NCBI GenBank assembly: GCA_020852855.1
Contig: JADZAA010000032.1
Span: 1 to 34,760, forward strand
Length of the DNA stretch: 34,760 bases
Direction of reading: 5' to 3'
DNA from: Bacteroidota bacterium
GTDB taxonomy: Bacteria > Bacteroidota > Ignavibacteria > Kapaibacteriales > UBA961
The notes beneath the pieces are model-generated. The model had not been told where the DNA came from. It saw only the letters and a program-made list of their open reading frames with translations, and did no database searches. Positions 297-33,066 of this stretch are shown piece by piece; within the stretch, counting starts at the first letter, position 1; each line of letters starts with the position of its first letter. The position numbers and the translations under genes are program-made.

Positions 297-2366
297 TTAT
301 CTGATTACCGTAAATAATCTCGAAACAACGTTTGATGCGAATGTAATGCGTATGATATATGCGCCCGGTGCAAGTCGGTTGACAGGTATTTCAATGGAAA
401 AACTATTCTTTTTATCGGTTAAAAAGGTCGCGCCATCAAAATTTTCCTTGAAAACGGAAGTACCGGTTAAATCTGAAATTTCAAGCGAAGCGGGAGAATC
501 GTCGCTGCTTAACGTAATGCTTTCGTGTGCGGGCGACGGATAAAGCAAAATGCCTCTGCCGGCTATTTCTTCGACGGCATTAGTAGGAACATTTACACGC
601 GCTTTCAGAACTGTGCCGCCGCTGCCTACTGCCCAGCCGGTCGAGTCGTTAATGAACAATGCTTTGTGAAGCGTACTCGACGTGCCGGTAAATTGGGATT
701 TCCATGTTTCGCCGCGGTCGGTAGTGCGAATGGCCGTGCCTTCGTCGCCTACAATCCAGCCAACAAGGCCGGAAGCAAAAGTTATAGAGCGAAGTGTAGC
801 GGATTCGCCCGTAATTTTTGCGTGCCACGACGCGCCGCCGTCGGTAGTGGAACGCAAAGTACCGTTTTCACCGCATATCCAGCCGTTTTGAGCGTTAGCG
901 AACCATACTCCGTATAGCGCGGTAGCCAAGCCGCTGACTTGCGGTTCCCATGTTTCACCGCCGTCGTTTGTGGAAAACACGGCTCCTGCGCTTCCTACAG
1001 CCCAGCCAAGATATTGATTTAGGAAGAATACATTGAAAATTGCCGTGTCGCCGCGTTGCAGTTTCAATTTCCAAGTTTCGCCGCCGTCGGTTGTGGCTGA
1101 TATTCCGTTTGTACCGGCAATGAACCCCATTATTGGTGACAGAAAACGCACCGCATAAAGCTGTCCGGTCGTTCCGGTGTTTTGAAGCGTAAAATTTTCT
1201 CCGCCGTCTGTTGTGCGCATTACAGTGCCGTTCGCGCCTGCAATCCAGCCGATTGCGGGCGAAATAAATGCCGCATCGCGCCAAGTAATCTGAAAAGGCG
1301 ATGAAATGCGTTGCCACTTTGCACCGCCGTTTTGAGTGCGCAATATAACGCCGGAATCGCCGACGGCCCAGCCGCGTTGAGCATCTGAAAATGAAATGCC
1401 GTACAGATTTGTTGTGGGGCCTCTTGTTAAATTGTTCCACGTTTCGCCGCCGTCGGTCGAGCGAAGCGTTGTGCCGCCCGCGCCTATGGCAAAACCTTCG
1501 TTTCGATTTGAAAATCGGATGCCGTGCAGGGATTGCGCAATACTTGCAGTACTTACCTTCCACGTTTCGCCGCCGTCGGTCGAGCGGAGAATTATACCGT
1601 TATCGCCGCAAGCCCAACCGAATGAAGCGTCAAGAAAGAAAATGTCGTTTAGCGTTTGAATTACACCGGATTTTTGCACTTTCCACGTATTGCCGCCATC
1701 AATTGTTGAAATAATGCCGCCGAGAGTTCCTGTCGCCCAGCCGCGTCCGTTCGGCAAGAACCAAATACCGTTCAGTCCGCTTTCGGTTTTTGTGAATTGC
1801 GGTTGCCAAGAGTGCCCGCTGTTATCCGTTGTAAGTATCAGCCCGTTGTTTCCGGCAACCCATCCTTTGGAACTGTCAGTGAAATGCACGGCGTTGAATA
1901 TTCCCGAAACACCGCTGATTATTGAAGACCAATTTTGGCCGCCGTCGGTAGTTTTCAGCAAAGCAGCTTTGTTACCGACAATAAAACCGGTTTTTTCATT
2001 TATGAAAGACACGGCGTTCAGCGTTTGCATTGTGGAATTCGGCTGTAATTTCCAGGTTTGCCCTGCATCGGAAGTATGCAGTATTGCACCGCTGCCGCCA
2101 ACCGCCCAACCTGATGCCGAACTTGGAAAGCAAACGGCGTTAAGTGTTTGAACAGTAGGGCTGTTGGCCGTTGTGAAGTTAATTCCGTTATTTGCCGTGG
2201 ATAGTATTGCGCCGCTTGTGCCGACGGCATAAAATTTTCCCGAAGGAGATATGTATGAGCCGCGAAGGTCATTGCCTATAGGTAACGGATTCTGCCAATC
2301 CCAGCCGTTTTGTCCGAACAGCATAGCGGGCAGGAACAGCACGGAAACTATGAAAATATAGCGCAT
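297..2366 (-). CDS. Secreted YCF48/BNR-repeat beta-propeller protein with T9SS sorting tail
   Basis: 689 aa from the chosen ATG. The ORF track extends 37 codons further upstream into pfk, but the ATG at 2366 is preceded by AGGAG at good spacing and starts a clear signal peptide (MRYIFIVSVLFLPAMLFGQ). The body is about 14 repeats of roughly 43 residues, each carrying a variant of GWAVGxxGxILRTxDGGxTW. These are the YCF48/photosystem II stability-like and BNR sialidase-like repeats that form beta-propeller blades; fourteen blades would suit two seven-bladed propellers (inference). The last ~80 residues (GILLYPSPAHESITL... ending RLFTVIR) look like a type A Por-secretion tail, implying export by SecYEG and then the type IX system to the cell surface. 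It lies 44 bp after pfk on the same strand, so it may be cotranscribed. The substrate or partner is unknown; despite the YCF48 name, no photosynthetic role is implied. Confidence 0.88.
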   Translation of the reverse strand: MRYIFIVSVLFLPAMLFGQNGWDWQNPLPIGNDLRGSYISPSGKFYAVGTSGAILSTANNGINFTTANSPTVQTLNAVCFPSSASGWAVGGSGAILHTSDAGQTWKLQPNSTMQTLNAVSFINEKTGFIVGNKAALLKTTDGGQNWSSIISGVSGIFNAVHFTDSSKGWVAGNNGLILTTDNSGHSWQPQFTKTESGLNGIWFLPNGRGWATGTLGGIISTIDGGNTWKVQKSGVIQTLNDIFFLDASFGWACGDNGIILRSTDGGETWKVSTASIAQSLHGIRFSNRNEGFAIGAGGTTLRSTDGGETWNNLTRGPTTNLYGISFSDAQRGWAVGDSGVILRTQNGGAKWQRISSPFQITWRDAAFISPAIGWIAGANGTVMRTTDGGENFTLQNTGTTGQLYAVRFLSPIMGFIAGTNGISATTDGGETWKLKLQRGDTAIFNVFFLNQYLGWAVGSAGAVFSTNDGGETWEPQVSGLATALYGVWFANAQNGWICGENGTLRSTTDGGASWHAKITGESATLRSITFASGLVGWIVGDEGTAIRTTDRGETWKSQFTGTSSTLHKALFINDSTGWAVGSGGTVLKARVNVPTNAVEEIAGRGILLYPSPAHESITLSSDDSPASLEISDLTGTSVFKENFDGATFLTDKKNSFSIEIPVNRLAPGAYIIRITFASNVVSRLFTVIR

Positions 2367-2410
2367 ACAAACTCCTGTGTAAGCTAAAAAAACAGTGGTG
2401 AAAGAGAAAA

Positions 2411-3517
2411 TTAGTCGCCGAACGAAATTCCTAAATCGCGTGCTGCCAGCACCGTATCGCTGTCTGTCGGCACGCATCTCATTCGCCCGGCCACTTCATT
2501 CAGCGGCACGTAACGAATATCGGGCGGGTCGAGAGCAACCATAATACCGGATTGTCCCTCGGCGAGTGCGCGAACAGCGGCGGCTCCAAATCTCAGGGCC
2601 AATAAGCGGTCCGATGTTGTGGGGGTGCCGCCTCGCTGTAGATGCCCCAACACTACGGTTCGAGTTTCTTTGCCGGTTAGTCGCTCAAGTTTATCTGCCA
2701 CGCGCGCGCCCGCGCCGCCTAAGCGCTCGGCGCGGCCAATCTCACGGCCTATTACCGAGTAGTCGCCGTCTTTGGGGCGCGCACCTTCGGCTACAACTAT
2801 AATGGAAAATTTTCTGCCCGAGCGTTCGCGCCAAATAACTTTTTCGGCGACCTTATTTATATCGTAAGGTATTTCGGGAATTAAAATTGCGTCGGCCGTT
2901 CCTGCAATGCCGCTGTTGAGCGCAATCCAACCGGCGTAGCGTCCCATAACTTCAACAACCATAACGCGGCGGTGCGATTCGGCTGTGGAATGCAGTCTGT
3001 CAATACATTCCGTCGCAAACGTTACGGCTGTGTCGAATCCGAATGTGATAACGGTTTTATCGAGGTCGTTATCAATGGTTTTGGGAACGCCCACAACTCG
3101 CAAGCCCTTTTCGGCCAGGCGATTGGCTATAGAAAGCGAGCCGTCGCCGCCCACGGCAACCAATGCTCCCACTCCCGCTTTTCGCAATGCCGCTATAATC
3201 TCGTCGGAGCGGTCAATTTCGACTATAGTGCCGTCCGGTTGAGTTACGGGAAATGCTAACGGATTGCCGTGATTTGTAGTGCCGAGTATTGTGCCGCCCA
3301 AATGCGTTATACCACGCACGGAAGCGCGTGTAAGCGGTATTATTCCGCCGTCGGGATATTCGCTTGCGTGTAGAATGCCGTCGTAGCCGTCGCGAATACC
3401 GACAACGTTCCAACCCCGGTTATGCGCCGCAAGCACTACTGCGCGAATGACGGCATTAAGTCCGGGAGCGTCGCCGCCGCCCGTGTTAATGGCTATTGTT
3501 TGGATTTCTGCCGCCAT
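2411..3517 (-). CDS. pfkA: 6-phosphofructokinase, group III (G104/K124) type
   Basis: 368 aa. Phosphorylates fructose 6-phosphate to fructose 1,6-bisphosphate in cytosolic glycolysis. The phosphate donor loop NTGGGDAPGLNAVIR is at residues 11-25, GGDGS at 123-127, the catalytic PKTIDND at 145-151, and MGRYAGWIAL in the sugar-phosphate site. The residue equivalent to E. coli position 104 is Gly (GGDGS), as in ATP-dependent enzymes, while the position equivalent to 124 is Lys (PKTIDND), as in PPi-dependent and group III enzymes. By family knowledge this mixed signature is usually ATP-using but shares ancestry with PPi-PFKs, so donor choice is not certain from sequence. The ATG start has AGGAG about 8 nt upstream. 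It follows aspA by about 98 bp on the same strand. Confidence 0.93.
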   Translation of the reverse strand: MAAEIQTIAINTGGGDAPGLNAVIRAVVLAAHNRGWNVVGIRDGYDGILHASEYPDGGIIPLTRASVRGITHLGGTILGTTNHGNPLAFPVTQPDGTIVEIDRSDEIIAALRKAGVGALVAVGGDGSLSIANRLAEKGLRVVGVPKTIDNDLDKTVITFGFDTAVTFATECIDRLHSTAESHRRVMVVEVMGRYAGWIALNSGIAGTADAILIPEIPYDINKVAEKVIWRERSGRKFSIIVVAEGARPKDGDYSVIGREIGRAERLGGAGARVADKLERLTGKETRTVVLGHLQRGGTPTTSDRLLALRFGAAAVRALAEGQSGIMVALDPPDIRYVPLNEVAGRMRCVPTDSDTVLAARDLGISFGD

Positions 3518-27113: not shown

Positions 27114-27644
27114 ATGAAAATACTGCTGACTTTTGCAATAGCCGCTTTGTTGCTCGGCACAATGCCGGCAATGGCGCAAAACGCCGCCCCAAACGTAATT
27201 AAAGAAAATCTGAAAGTTGAATTTCCTACGCTCTGGAATGCCATAAAGAAAACGCTCGCCGATATAAAATGCGACGTGGAAGTCGAGAAAAACGACCAAG
27301 GTGAGGATAATTTGTTCAAAGGTAATATAAGAACAGGTTTTTTTATTATCATTACGGGAATTGACAGCACAAAAGATGTGATGGAAAGCTATAGCTGCGA
27401 AGACGACGCTTGCGAAAAATTCCCGTATATACGCGGCGGCGAATGGGTGTCGGGGAGAATCCAATATAAATTCGTTCTGAAAGAAAAGGAAGATAATACG
27501 GTGGATGTCAGGTTGGAAGGCGAACTTAGCGGCTTTGAACAATGGGTTACGCATAAAGTTCATTTCTGGCAAAGTAACGGAGTTCTCGAACATCGCCTAT
27601 TGGATAAGATTAAAGAAAATGCGGGAATTACGGCGGATAAATAA
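27114..27644 (+). CDS. Small exported protein of unknown function
   Basis: 176 aa. A signal peptide (MKILLTFAIAALLLGTMPAMAQ) is followed by a mature domain that starts FPTLWNAIKKTLADIKCDVEVEKND and continues with beta strands (FKGNIRTGFFIIITGID, GRIQYKFVLKE, VDVRLEGELSGF). The opening helix then beta layout is reminiscent of small periplasmic domains of the BamC or DUF4136 sort. I cannot name the family. There are two cysteines in SCEDDACEKF (CxxxxxC) that could form a disulfide. It is 14 bp after the lipoprotein gene, so the pair is likely one unit acting in the envelope. A strong terminator follows. Confidence 0.75.
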   Translation: MKILLTFAIAALLLGTMPAMAQNAAPNVIKENLKVEFPTLWNAIKKTLADIKCDVEVEKNDQGEDNLFKGNIRTGFFIIITGIDSTKDVMESYSCEDDACEKFPYIRGGEWVSGRIQYKFVLKEKEDNTVDVRLEGELSGFEQWVTHKVHFWQSNGVLEHRLLDKIKENAGITADK

Positions 27645-27760: not shown

Positions 27761-27780
27761 CTACGGGATTTTTTGGGGGA

Positions 27781-27865
27781 AACGAATTGTGCCGTAGGTA
27801 CAATATATCGGTAGGGAAGAGAAGCAAAAAAACGAATTGTGCCGTAGGTACAATATATCGGTAGG
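27781..27865. repeat. 35-bp direct repeats with 50-bp period
   Basis: AACGAATTGTGCCGTAGGTA... ending CGGTAGG occurs at 27781-27815 and 27831-27865, identical over 35 bp and separated by 15 bp. Each copy holds GTGCCGTAGGTAC, a near-palindrome. Only two copies are present and no cas gene is near, so this is not a CRISPR array. It looks like an interspersed intergenic repeat. Confidence 0.85.
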
Positions 27866-27873
27866 AGGTAACA

Positions 27874-27915
27874 ATTAAAAAAGCACGTTCCGTTATTACA
27901 ATGAAACGTGCTTTC
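27874..27915 (-). terminator. Intrinsic terminator of the tail-fibre-like gene
   Basis: On the minus strand AAAGCACGTT and AACGTGCTTT form a perfect 10-bp stem with a 15-nt loop; T-rich sequence (TTTTTTAATTG, including the stem's end) follows. It is 24 bp beyond the stop at 27939. Confidence 0.8.
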
Positions 27916-27938: not shown

Positions 27939-30900
27939 TTAAGGCCCAGGGCAAACTTTCATTATGAAGCCAACATAAATAAACTCCGGAATATTATCTT
28001 CGCTCGAAGTTCCTACGCTGGTCGCATCGTCGGTTGTGCCACTACCGGAGATATCGTTAAGATTTACGCTTACATCGGAACTATTGCCACTAAACGTATG
28101 AGTATGGCCGGGATCGGTAATATTAACATCAACACTTGTTGAATAATTAGAGGTTTCATCGCCACTAAGATCGCTACCGCTTTGAAGTGCTCCGCTTGCT
28201 GAAATACCTGTTGTTGCATTATCTATAGTTCCGCTGAACGATGCCGTACCCTCAATGGTACTACCTGTACCGCCACTAAAGCTGAAACTATGCGAATGGC
28301 CATCAACTGTATGCGAGTGAGTATTACTTCCACCGGGCGTTCCTACACTGGCCGGCGTTGTGGTGTCACGTGGGAATCGGTCATTTAGATCGGGAGTGCC
28401 ATTATTGCCGTCGCATAATGCCCAGCCGCTTGGCACATTGCCAATATCTCCCGTCCACATCACTATAGAGCCGCAAGGCAGGGCGGCGTTTATAGCGTCA
28501 TCAGTTTCCGTCTTTGTGTAATAATTATTGAGCGTAGTCGTTAGGCTACTGCTTGTAACGTAGTCTGCGAGCGTAGTTGAAAGGCTACTGTTTGTAACGT
28601 AGTCTGCGAGCGTAGTTGAAAGGCTGCTGATTGTAACGTAATCGTTAATATCAAACGAAGTATTGATAATAGGTTCGGAAGCCGTGCCCGTAATGCTAAT
28701 GCCTGTGCCGGCAGTTACACTTTGTACTCCGGGGCTCGGTGCATTAATCCATTCAAGGTCGGCAGTAGTTCTACCGCCGCTGCTTTGTACATTATTCGCG
28801 CTTAATATTTGCCCGCCGGTAGGTGCGGCTTTCGGTAAAGCATACATGAAATTACCCGTAAGTCCGGTAGCCGGTGCCACAAAACCTGCATAGTTGGTAG
28901 CCATCGGAAAATCATCGTCATCGTCATCATGATGTGAAGTATAAAAGCGTAATTCGCGAGGTTTACTGTCATTATTTGCCAGCCATAAGTCCACATTTCC
29001 AAGTACAGCGGTATTATCGGCAGTAATTGTCATTGATTCGTAGTTATGTCCGTCTGTAGACGCTCCGAGAAAGCCCATGGAACTGTTTCCGATTAGGGTG
29101 AGGTTACTTCCGCCGAGAATAGAGGAGTTCCGTCCATTATCTCCATCAACATCTCCGATTGTATTATCGCTTCCCCCCAAGATAGAAGCGGAATTGCCCC
29201 GAATTGTGTTATTAAGACCGCCTGCGATAGTAGCATACTGTTCATATATGCTATTCATAGAGCCGCCGCCTATGGTTGAGAAACGGGATATAACAGTATT
29301 GTCTTCACCACCGGCTATTACCGAATTAGCTGCAAAAACGTCGACGTCTACGTCTCCTATCGTATTGCCGCTTCCGCCGCCGATAAAGGAATATGGTACA
29401 TGGCTGCCTGCTATTGAGTTATCTTCTCCGCCCGCGATAGTGGAATTATAGCCGCCGCCCATTTCACCCGAAAAGGAGCTGTGAATAAAGTTACCCTGCC
29501 CACCGCCTATGGTGCTGCCGTTCACATAGGATCCGAGGATTGAATTACTTATACCGCCTGCTATTGTTGCGCCGTAGCCACTATTAAATTCATAGCCGTC
29601 GTTGCTAGTTATAGCATTACCGGTTCCGCCTCCTATAACCGAGTAATCTCCTCCGGCTACCCTAAATGCCTCTTCATCGTCTGTTGTACCAATTTGCCAA
29701 TCAATGGCATTATATCCTCGAGGGTCACCCAATTTAGAAGCTTGTAATGCACCGCCTTCGCTTGGAATAAGTGCTATGCTGTGATACATCCACTGGTCGT
29801 TAATGCAAGTATTTATGCTTATAGGTACTATGCCATTGGTTACATCTTCGAGAATGAGCGCGCCTTGTTGGATTTGCGTACCTGATGTATTGCCAAAACG
29901 TACAAAAGCATTTTGACATACGGGCGACGGAATTGTAGTTACGCCGTTTCCGCCTCCGCCTTCGCTCCATACAACGTCTGTACCGTTGAAAGTGATTACA
30001 TCTCCGGCAACCGCACCGGTAGTCCAGATTTTCTTTCCTGTAACATTACGGTCAAAAATTTTGGGTGTTGTAACTGCATTATCGGCTATGTCAATCGTTC
30101 TAATTGTTCCGTCAATTATATTGTCGGTGGATACGGAATTATCCGCAAGTTTAGGATTAGTAACCGCGTTATTGGCCAATTTGGGCGATGTAACGGCATT
30201 GTCGGCGAGTTTAGGACTTGTAACCGCACCGTCTAATAATTTAATGGAAGATACAGCGCCGTCAGCGAGTTTTGGTGTGGTAACGTTCAAATCGCGGATT
30301 TTTTCTGTCATTACGGCATTGGTTGCGATGATTTGCGTTTGAACCGCATTATCGGCCAAGTTGGCCGTCGTTATGGTTTTATCGGCAATTTTGGCAGTTG
30401 TAACGGCATCATTTGCAATGAGTTGTGTTGTAATGGCGTTATTGGCGATATTCGATGAAACAATAGTTCCATTTGCAATTTTAGCACCTGTAACGGCATC
30501 ATTGACAATTTTTAAGGTAGTAATTGCCGAGTTTGCGATTTTTGCTCCGGTAACAGCATTATCGGCGATTTTTGATGTAGTAACTTTACCGTTGCCGATT
30601 GTTGGGCTCGGGTATGTTCCCGATAAATCGCCTCCGGCCGAACCTGTGGGCGGTACAAGTATATCGTCGCCGTTTTTAAGTGAATTTTTATCGAATTCCA
30701 AGCGGAATATACCGCCGTCATTATTTACTTTGATACCGTTGGAGCCTACTATTGAGAGATCGCCGTCTTCTCCGTTAATCGAGGTTACTGCCCCCGTTGC
30801 AAAAGGTGCCAGCGAGCGTGCCTGCTCCGCTTGCATCGAGTACGGCACGGAAACGAGTGGAACGCGGCTGATTTCGGGCTTTCCGTCAATGCTTATACCT

Positions 30901-31205
30901 ATATAATAGGGCTGGTCAAACGACAGCGAAAGCGATGTTTTATTGCCGACTATGATATTAAACAAACCATCTTCTATGGTCGCGCTATGCTCTTCGCTCC
31001 AAATGGATTTGGCGGCGTTAGGCGCGTCGTAAAGCCTTACGGTAATTGTATGAACTCCGCTATACGGCTTGCCGCTTATTGCGTCGGTTAATGTTCCTTG
31101 ATAGGAAAATTGACGCGGAATTTGCCCCAATGAAGGAACAACGGCGATAGTCAGGGCGGCTAATGCAATAGCAGATCCTGCCAGAATAGAGGTAAAATAC
31201 TTCAT
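27939..31205 (-). CDS. Large exported repeat protein with phage tail-fibre architecture
   Basis: 1088 aa. A signal peptide (MKYFTSILAGSAIALAALTIAVVPSLGQ) is followed by a beta domain at about 30-130 (RQFSYQGTLTDAISGKPYSG...). Residues about 211-390 hold 18 decapeptide repeats of the type KIADNAVTTP. Residues about 519-710 hold about ten S-x-I-x-G-G-x-x-N-x-I units, which suggest a beta-roll or beta-helix head. Three 13-residue repeats (DYVTxSSLSTTLA, 856-894) and YYTKTETDDAI look like a trimeric stalk. GSIVMWTGDIGNVPSGWALCDGNNGTPDLNDRF (912-944) is a tail-collar-like domain. HxH motifs at 963-965, 970-972 and 1034-1036 recall metal-binding fibre tips such as T4 gp37. There is no T9SS tail. 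It is probably a surface adhesin (inference). Confidence 0.88.
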   Translation of the reverse strand: MKYFTSILAGSAIALAALTIAVVPSLGQIPRQFSYQGTLTDAISGKPYSGVHTITVRLYDAPNAAKSIWSEEHSATIEDGLFNIIVGNKTSLSLSFDQPYYIGISIDGKPEISRVPLVSVPYSMQAEQARSLAPFATGAVTSINGEDGDLSIVGSNGIKVNNDGGIFRLEFDKNSLKNGDDILVPPTGSAGGDLSGTYPSPTIGNGKVTTSKIADNAVTGAKIANSAITTLKIVNDAVTGAKIANGTIVSSNIANNAITTQLIANDAVTTAKIADKTITTANLADNAVQTQIIATNAVMTEKIRDLNVTTPKLADGAVSSIKLLDGAVTSPKLADNAVTSPKLANNAVTNPKLADNSVSTDNIIDGTIRTIDIADNAVTTPKIFDRNVTGKKIWTTGAVAGDVITFNGTDVVWSEGGGGNGVTTIPSPVCQNAFVRFGNTSGTQIQQGALILEDVTNGIVPISINTCINDQWMYHSIALIPSEGGALQASKLGDPRGYNAIDWQIGTTDDEEAFRVAGGDYSVIGGGTGNAITSNDGYEFNSGYGATIAGGISNSILGSYVNGSTIGGGQGNFIHSSFSGEMGGGYNSTIAGGEDNSIAGSHVPYSFIGGGSGNTIGDVDVDVFAANSVIAGGEDNTVISRFSTIGGGSMNSIYEQYATIAGGLNNTIRGNSASILGGSDNTIGDVDGDNGRNSSILGGSNLTLIGNSSMGFLGASTDGHNYESMTITADNTAVLGNVDLWLANNDSKPRELRFYTSHHDDDDDDFPMATNYAGFVAPATGLTGNFMYALPKAAPTGGQILSANNVQSSGGRTTADLEWINAPSPGVQSVTAGTGISITGTASEPIINTSFDINDYVTISSLSTTLADYVTNSSLSTTLADYVTSSSLTTTLNNYYTKTETDDAINAALPCGSIVMWTGDIGNVPSGWALCDGNNGTPDLNDRFPRDTTTPASVGTPGGSNTHSHTVDGHSHSFSFSGGTGSTIEGTASFSGTIDNATTGISASGALQSGSDLSGDETSNYSTSVDVNITDPGHTHTFSGNSSDVSVNLNDISGSGTTDDATSVGTSSEDNIPEFIYVGFIMKVCPGP
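30036..30575 (-). repeat. 30-bp coding repeat array (18 decapeptide units)
   Basis: This DNA encodes residues 211-390 of the tail-fibre-like protein. The period is exactly 30 bp with consensus protein KIADNAVTTP or KLADNAVTSP. Copies are diverged at the DNA level, with the most alike units toward the lower coordinates. Confidence 0.88.
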
Positions 31206-31754: not shown

Positions 31755-31817
31755 GATTTGAGATTTACGATTTGAGATTTGAGATTTACGATTTCCTAAC
31801 CACTAACCACTAACCCC
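31755..31817. repeat. 19-bp direct repeat pair and TAACCAC heptamers
   Basis: GATTTGAGATTTACGATTT occurs exactly at 31755-31773 and 31776-31794. It is followed by TAACCAC, TAACCAC and TAACCCC at 31797-31817. The last heptamers overlap the TAG stop of the DUF1343 gene (31810-31812). These are non-coding simple repeats. Confidence 0.82.
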
Positions 31818-33066
31818 CATAAAGCAAATATTTTTCACGCAGCCGGCGGAACTCATCTTCGCCTTTCGTCGCAATTTTAAGTATATTTTCAAGTGTGTCG
31901 CCATTTGCCAGAGCATTGCATAAAGCTTTATTCGCCAAAACCTTGCGCAGCATTGAATCTTTTTTGTTCAGTTCGCGCATTATTCCGGGCAGCGTCGTTC
32001 GTAATTCCGCAAGCAATGCTATACCGGCAGAGAAATAACGTTTTTGTTCAGCATCGGGCAGGAGAATCAAGCCCGAACAAATTTGTCCGCCGAATGTACC
32101 CGTTTCCGTGCGAAATCGTGTACGGGCAATTTTGCAGGGCATAGATATTTGCTCGATTTTCGATATTATTTCTGCCGCGAGTGAATCCGGCCTTCCCAAA
32201 TATCTGAACGGGAGTGCCGAGCCAATTCCGATATTTACGCCGCCGGCTTCGCCGAGAATACCCGTTATTGCCATAGCGCGAATTGTTTCGGGCGACGGAA
32301 CATTGGGCGATGTCGGAAACCACGGCAGTCCGGTATTTTCCCAAGTCATGGAGCGTTTCCAACTGCTCATCGGAATTACCGTAAGTTTTGCTTTCCGCTT
32401 CGCGGGCAACCAATTTTCCTCGTTCATCATGCGTGCAAGTTCGCCTATTGTGCAGCCGTGCAAATACGGCACGGGCAATGCGGCCACAAACGAGAGTGCG
32501 TCGTCCTCGGCCGGTGCGCCGTCCACCAATATACCGCCCAGAGGGTTAGGGCGGTCAAGTACAATTATCGGTTTGCCGAACTCGGCGCAAGCGTCCATTA
32601 CATTGCGCAGCGAGCTTACGAAAGTATAAGAGCGTATACCGATGTCTTGAATATCGGCAACTACCGCATCGCAATCGGCCAGCATTTCGCGTGTAGGGCG
32701 GCGGAATTTTCCGTATAAAGAAAAAAAAGGTATGCTGTTAATGGTATCGTTGGCTACTGCCGAACCGGCCGGAACAGCTGCATCGAAGCCATGTTCGGGC
32801 GTTAAAACCGTAGTTAAACGGCAATAGGGAGTAGAGCGGAATACATCGAAAGCGGTGCGTAAATCAGATGTGCGTCCCGCCGAATTTGTCAGCAATGCTA
32901 TGCGTTTTCCGGCTGTTGCGCCAAAATTATCGGCAATTAAATTGTCTATTCCAAGCCGTAAGGACACTGTTTTGTCGGTATCAGGCGGTGTTTCGGGCGG
33001 CTTGACTACTGCGCAGGCGCAATAAATAAGCCCACAAATAAATATGGCAAGCCGAGTCTTTATCAT
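31810..33066 (-). CDS. DUF1343 / NamZ-type exo-N-acetylmuramidase
   Basis: 418 aa. The characteristic blocks are GKRIALLTNSAGRTSD, LTPEHGFDAAVPAG, DAVVADIQDIGIRSYTFVSSL, IVLDRPNPLGG and PWFPTSPNVPSPET. DUF1343 proteins include NamZ, which releases terminal N-acetylmuramic acid from peptidoglycan fragments. The N-terminus (MIKTRLAIFICGLIYCACAVVKPPETPP) is a signal, possibly lipoprotein-type with one of the two Cys lipidated; the lipobox is imperfect. It would act in the periplasm on cell-wall turnover products. The ATG overlaps the rnc stop by 4 nt (ATGA), so it is translationally coupled to rnc. Confidence 0.9.
   Translation of the reverse strand: MIKTRLAIFICGLIYCACAVVKPPETPPDTDKTVSLRLGIDNLIADNFGATAGKRIALLTNSAGRTSDLRTAFDVFRSTPYCRLTTVLTPEHGFDAAVPAGSAVANDTINSIPFFSLYGKFRRPTREMLADCDAVVADIQDIGIRSYTFVSSLRNVMDACAEFGKPIIVLDRPNPLGGILVDGAPAEDDALSFVAALPVPYLHGCTIGELARMMNEENWLPAKRKAKLTVIPMSSWKRSMTWENTGLPWFPTSPNVPSPETIRAMAITGILGEAGGVNIGIGSALPFRYLGRPDSLAAEIISKIEQISMPCKIARTRFRTETGTFGGQICSGLILLPDAEQKRYFSAGIALLAELRTTLPGIMRELNKKDSMLRKVLANKALCNALANGDTLENILKIATKGEDEFRRLREKYLLYGG

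Follow-up and report, generated by a model that had tools for sequence, protein, structure and literature searches.

The window analyzed here, a stretch of 34,760 nucleotides of Bacteroidota DNA, carries on its minus strand a long gene (27939..31205) whose ATG-start frame is intact over 1088 amino acids, and pieces of its product are 35-62% identical in other genera. Its neighbors are housekeeping genes (PFK, fumarase, NAD synthase, BshC, NamZ and RNase III); no phage genes lie nearby, as an earlier note on this DNA had pointed out, and the gene does not sit among virion genes, as one for a phage tail fiber would. Two genes upstream, on the same strand, is the gene for the NamZ-type exo-beta-N-acetylmuramidase (31810-33066); the presence of a peptidoglycan-degrading enzyme gene near a fiber that we describe below as similar to the mosaic adhesive trimers (MATs) is suggestive, and may be due to chance. 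After the fiber stop codon, a terminator-like hairpin (AAAGCACGTT...AACGTGCTTTTTT; 27877..27914, minus strand), read by eye and with a loop that exceeds the limit of our scan, suggests that the transcript would end there, while a promoter scan gave no more matches than shuffled sequences. Just downstream of the fiber gene lie two exact 35-bp direct repeats (CTACCGATATATTGTACCTACGGCACAATTCGTTT; 27780-27814 and 27830-27864, minus strand), 50 bp apart and with no further copy in the genome, and a convergent gene (27114-27644, plus strand) for a small, exported-looking protein of 176 amino acids with no Pfam match.

The N-terminus of the fiber protein (residues 1-27; 31125..31205; this and all following segments are, like the gene, on the minus strand) resembles a signal peptide. 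It reads MKYFTSILAGSAIALAALTIAVVPSLG followed by QIPRQ, the hydrophobic leader ending in SLG, and contains no lipobox Cys; equivalent hydrophobic leaders precede the corresponding domain of its relatives. Export through Sec, already proposed in the earlier note, is strongly suggested by these features as read from the sequence.

The domain that follows the leader, which we call the base (residues 28-125; 30831..31124), was delimited by alignments and AlphaFold2, and its importance had been overlooked: it is a shared cellular N-terminal domain that places the protein in a large mosaic family. It is recognized by the motif QIPRxxSYQGxLTD...LYD...E...G.FN..LG...FD..Y..GI...E..R..L.SVPYS, and AlphaFold2 predicts with high confidence a beta domain over about 90 residues (block mean pLDDT 88-96 for positions 11-90 in the 144-residue fragment submitted). 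No Pfam family matches any of the 72 members, and because a Foldseek search of the PDB returned nothing at E<=0.001 (TM at best about 0.4-0.5), we give the fold no name. A likeness to tryptophan synthase, from the comparison of the N-domain profile with the PDB, was discarded as a chance match (E=0.24). The base profile is found in 85 of the 297 phylum genomes, covering 55 of 141 genera, as well as in records named Ignavibacteria, Kapaibacterium, Calditrichota, KSB1, Gemmatimonadota, Latescibacterota, Armatimonadetes, Rhodothermia, Neomarinimicrobiota and Eisenbacteria, and in some Betaproteobacteria. It has no significant match among 50,697 phage records, nor in plasmids or viral contigs. The host genome itself has two further copies, on contigs C85 and C111, giving three base-domain proteins, and in another genome one locus (L068, G042:C21) holds three tandem genes for base-domain fibers of about 1700 amino acids, each with up to 24 matches to the decapeptide pattern described below. 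The full-length protein finds matches in 48 of 61 relatives of the order, in part via its repeats, and this search brought up dozens of large proteins that contain the base region; a full-protein pattern scan of the genome contigs, with patterns that sat in variable parts, found no match, and it was the alignment of the base that succeeded. By these comparisons the base is a widespread, unnamed, cellular bacterial domain. With no Pfam model for the base, proteins of this kind probably take their current names from their phage-like tips.

Between base and tip lies a succession of fiber modules. A linker common to the relatives (residues 126-200; 30606..30830), with the tail-fiber-like motif TGAVTSINGEDGDLSIVGSNGI, leads into an array of decapeptides (residues 207-386; 30048..30587; consensus AVTTxKIADN). 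The 18 units claimed for this array are all clean, with a lag-10 identity of 0.446 against a mean of 0.096 and a maximum of 0.188 in 2000 shuffles, and the array matches the PHROG family phrog_892 (E=5.4e-40). Further along, the field of S-x-I-x-G-G-x-x-N units (residues 522-705; 29091..29642), also spotted previously, comprises 10-11 head repeats of the YadA/UspA1 type and aligns to the solved UspA1 head 3pr7 (E=4.4e-10). It is followed by a module, NTAVLGNVDLWLANNDSKPRELRFY...GFVAPATGL (residues 728-825; 28731..29024), that occurs in 17 of 101 relatives and is repeated in one of them, L065. The stalk repeats of the earlier reading, with a recurring D-Y-V-T-x-S-S-L, could likewise be placed, at about residues 855-905 (28491..28643; DYVTxSSLxTTLA / NNYYTKTETDDAI).

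The tip (residues 908-1088; 27942..28484), which has viral and cellular relatives, consists of a collar-like segment, an HxH region and a C-terminal strand. The collar-like domain proposed earlier is only weakly matched by PF07484 (residues 912-935, E=0.0034, below the Pfam cut-off), but residues 872-1084 match the PHROG tail-fiber family phrog_8469 (E=2.8e-7). Relatives of the tip occur in 427 viral contigs, it matches 82 annotated phage records, and its profile matches the solved phage fiber 9qgo (1.4e-23) as well as the phage fiber 9nxk and the trimeric 'C24 protein' 6ov6. Among cellular proteins, it is 57-62% identical to proteins of two other genera, and the complete tip, looked for in 119 genomes of the order, is confined to this genome and two other genera of the same family. 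The six histidines of the C-terminal 188 residues all lie within three HxH motifs, namely HSH at 963-965 (28311..28319), HSH at 970-972 (28290..28298) and HTH at 1034-1036 (28098..28106); three or more such motifs arose by chance in 3 of 20,000 shuffles, and each histidine is at least 90% conserved when the tip is aligned with 32 relatives from viruses. The likeness to the tip of T4 gp37 that had been drawn from these motifs stands for the motifs themselves, which are conserved as in a gp37-type tip. The overall sequence similarity to gp37 (2xgf), however, is weak (2.5e-5 overall), and its domain E-value of 0.031 comes with strong composition bias. In the single-chain model the HxH region has low confidence (block mean pLDDT 42-56), which fits an obligate trimer and in itself proves nothing.

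In T4 gp37, the HxH motifs coordinate iron (summarized in PMC11705849), and the whole protein is high in Gly, Ser, Thr and Asn and low in Lys/Arg. Both features would suit a structural or metal-binding polymer, periplasmic or released, rather than an adhesin. We regard such a polymer as improbable, given that a trimer with only two to three HxH rings would be a poor metal store, that phages use this tip family for receptor binding, and that sibling proteins end in C1q/TNF-like and S74 tips instead.

The comparison with relatives reveals how loosely these parts are joined. The earlier note had called for a search for the same architecture in relatives; what this search brought up are proteins that share the base and have swapped modules and tips. 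In 101 relatives, the base is present in 100, the decapeptides in 40, the G-G units in 23 and this tip in two. One relative from another genus (L065) has 58% identity to the fiber in the tip and 36% in the base, whereas two others (L088 and L097) have 47-48% identity in the base and lack this tip. Across 63 family C-termini we found S74 (18), C1q (6), Collar (4), YadA_head (3), TNF (1) and Gp10_C (1), all interchangeable ends of the same base; one S74-type sibling (L090) had no PDB match. The alignments show that tip and base evolve independently of each other. The modules are decoupled and varied ends occur on one base, a swapping of tips on a conserved base.

A tip with relatives in so many viral contigs could also have been left behind by a phage, either as the remnant of a cryptic prophage or as a tail-fiber gene that was captured recently and has no function for the cell. 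This is very improbable: the frame of 1088 amino acids is intact, the leader and base occur in no phage record, the flanking genes are the housekeeping genes listed above, and in L065, from another genus, this tip and this base are joined as well, among neighbors that are, by inspection, not of phage origin. A prophage remnant was rejected on this gene context.

The fiber modules and the tip are, moreover, common to phages, and the earlier note had offered as one option a fiber of a contractile device, with the advice to look for contractile genes elsewhere. One contractile system was indeed detected: the Kapabacteria-like genome, which also has a type IX secretion system (T9SS), encodes T6SS components on other contigs, with TssE/F/G on C127 (L241:7951-11337) and the sheath protein TssC on C85 (L242). 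That the protein serves as the receptor-binding fiber of a contractile device, be it a T6SS, an extracellular contractile injection system or a tailocin, is nonetheless extremely unlikely. Such devices assemble in the cytoplasm, out of which the Sec-type leader would carry the protein, and a Sec-exported fiber could therefore not be mounted on one. The fiber gene is unlinked to the T6SS genes, which all lie outside the window, and a candidate operon or contractile linkage was rejected; a family search of the genome found no phage/eCIS-type sheath (PF04984); the base is absent from phages, with homologs of the fiber in non-phage contexts. To our knowledge, no known T6SS carries tail fibers.

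How the fiber would cross the outer membrane is a separate matter; no crossing signal was found in the protein. The genome has a T9SS, with SprA and 99 matches to sorting domains (E<=0.001), and the window encodes a BNR/YCF48-type repeat protein with a T9SS sorting domain (297-2477, minus strand). The absence of a T9SS tail from the fiber, noted previously, was borne out by library scans, which found no sorting domain (TIGR04183/PF18962) in the protein, and its gene is not one of the 99. The fiber might still be T9SS cargo that takes a non-canonical way out, such as on a partner with a sorting tail, and this would be compatible with a MAT-like fiber. In line with it, SprA is present in all 11 non-betaproteobacterial base-domain genomes reached through other loci and, overall, in 18 of the 22 genomes checked, an association confounded by shared ancestry. 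However, the NCBIfam matches of the 63 family C-termini include no sorting domain either, and SprA also occurs in two genomes of the same order that have no match to the fiber (G020 and G028). The four genomes with no SprA, recorded as Burkholderiales, Betaproteobacteria, Acidovorax or Sulfuricella, carry the base domain, so the T9SS is no general requirement. We consider the T9SS-cargo reading unlikely. In a Kapabacteria base-domain protein of 1835 amino acids (L144:8818-14322), the last ~70 residues resemble a T9SS sorting tail by eye, a likeness that library scans did not support (best E=0.21).

Taken together, the gene would encode an exported protein with the build of a phage tail fiber, as first described: a leader, a cellular base, modules made of decapeptides, UspA1-type units and stalk repeats, and a collar/HxH tip shared with phages, all read from the protein sequence. 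The adhesin option of the earlier note is the best reading. We think it likely that this is a single-gene, Sec-exported, probably homotrimeric surface fiber of the mosaic adhesive trimer kind, and most probably one with which the bacterium grips surfaces or other cells and whose construction resembles that of the prey-recognition fibers of Bdellovibrio. Three chains would trimerize along the shaft, by homology with UspA1, MATs and phage fibers. By the MAT precedent, the base would stay at the cell surface with the tip facing outward. The conserved HxH motifs could form rings that coordinate a metal ion along the three-fold axis and keep the tip locked; the tip in turn may bind a glycan or a protein, be it on a particle, a surface or another cell.

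More tentatively, we could speculate that the base is a widespread module for display at the cell surface, served by an outer-membrane export or anchor partner of its own, on which phage-type tips are interchangeable across many phyla and of which the Bdellovibrio fibers represent one branch. If the base is homologous to that of the MATs, the prey-recognition fibers would be the best-studied branch of a much broader mosaic-fiber system, and both the partner of the base and the crossing of the outer membrane would become approachable through comparative genomics across many lineages.

Three known systems invite comparison. The trimeric autotransporter adhesins UspA1/YadA (T5c) have the S-x-I-x-G-G head repeats in common with the fiber. 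Unlike them, it has no YadA-anchor barrel, with no anchor family found in Pfam and family library scans, and ends in the collar/HxH tip instead. The tips of phage fibers (9qgo, 6ov6, 9nxk and T4 gp37 2xgf) have the same collar motif, GWALCDGxxGTPDL, and the HxH pairs and terminal PxYxxLAYIMK strand also recur in the fiber; here, however, the tip sits on a cellular protein that carries a Sec-type leader and a base of non-phage kind.

The closest fit in architecture is with the MAT proteins of Bdellovibrio bacteriovorus, named by Caulton et al. 2024 (PMC10769870). These consist of a signal peptide, a beta-rich N-domain of ~130 amino acids with no PDB homolog and with an unknown binding partner, a trimeric shaft and a variable tip, and their tagged C-termini are exposed on the cell surface (PMC10769870). 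The fiber shares with them the conserved beta-rich domain directly after a signal peptide (the latter read from sequence), similarly with no PDB homolog, and its family follows the same plan of trimer-type shaft and swappable tips (S74, TNF-like and others). Moreover, L132, a sibling that has this base too, matches the crystallized MAT proteins Bd2133 (8OND, E=1.5e-6), Bd2439 (8OL4) and Bd3182 (8OJN), PDB entries that cover the C-terminal parts only. A trimeric shaft is suggested by homology to UspA1 and, through this sibling, to the MAT shafts. There are differences: Bdellovibrio belongs to another phylum than the fiber host and has 21 MATs, compared with three base-domain proteins in the fiber genome, and the fiber has a collar/HxH tip, whereas the term 'collar' is never used in PMC10769870. 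Because a base carries interchangeable tips in both, and because L132 matches solved MAT fragments, the architecture of the fiber is that of a MAT, and we file it as MAT-like, a protein that by its architecture would work like a MAT, short of proven membership.
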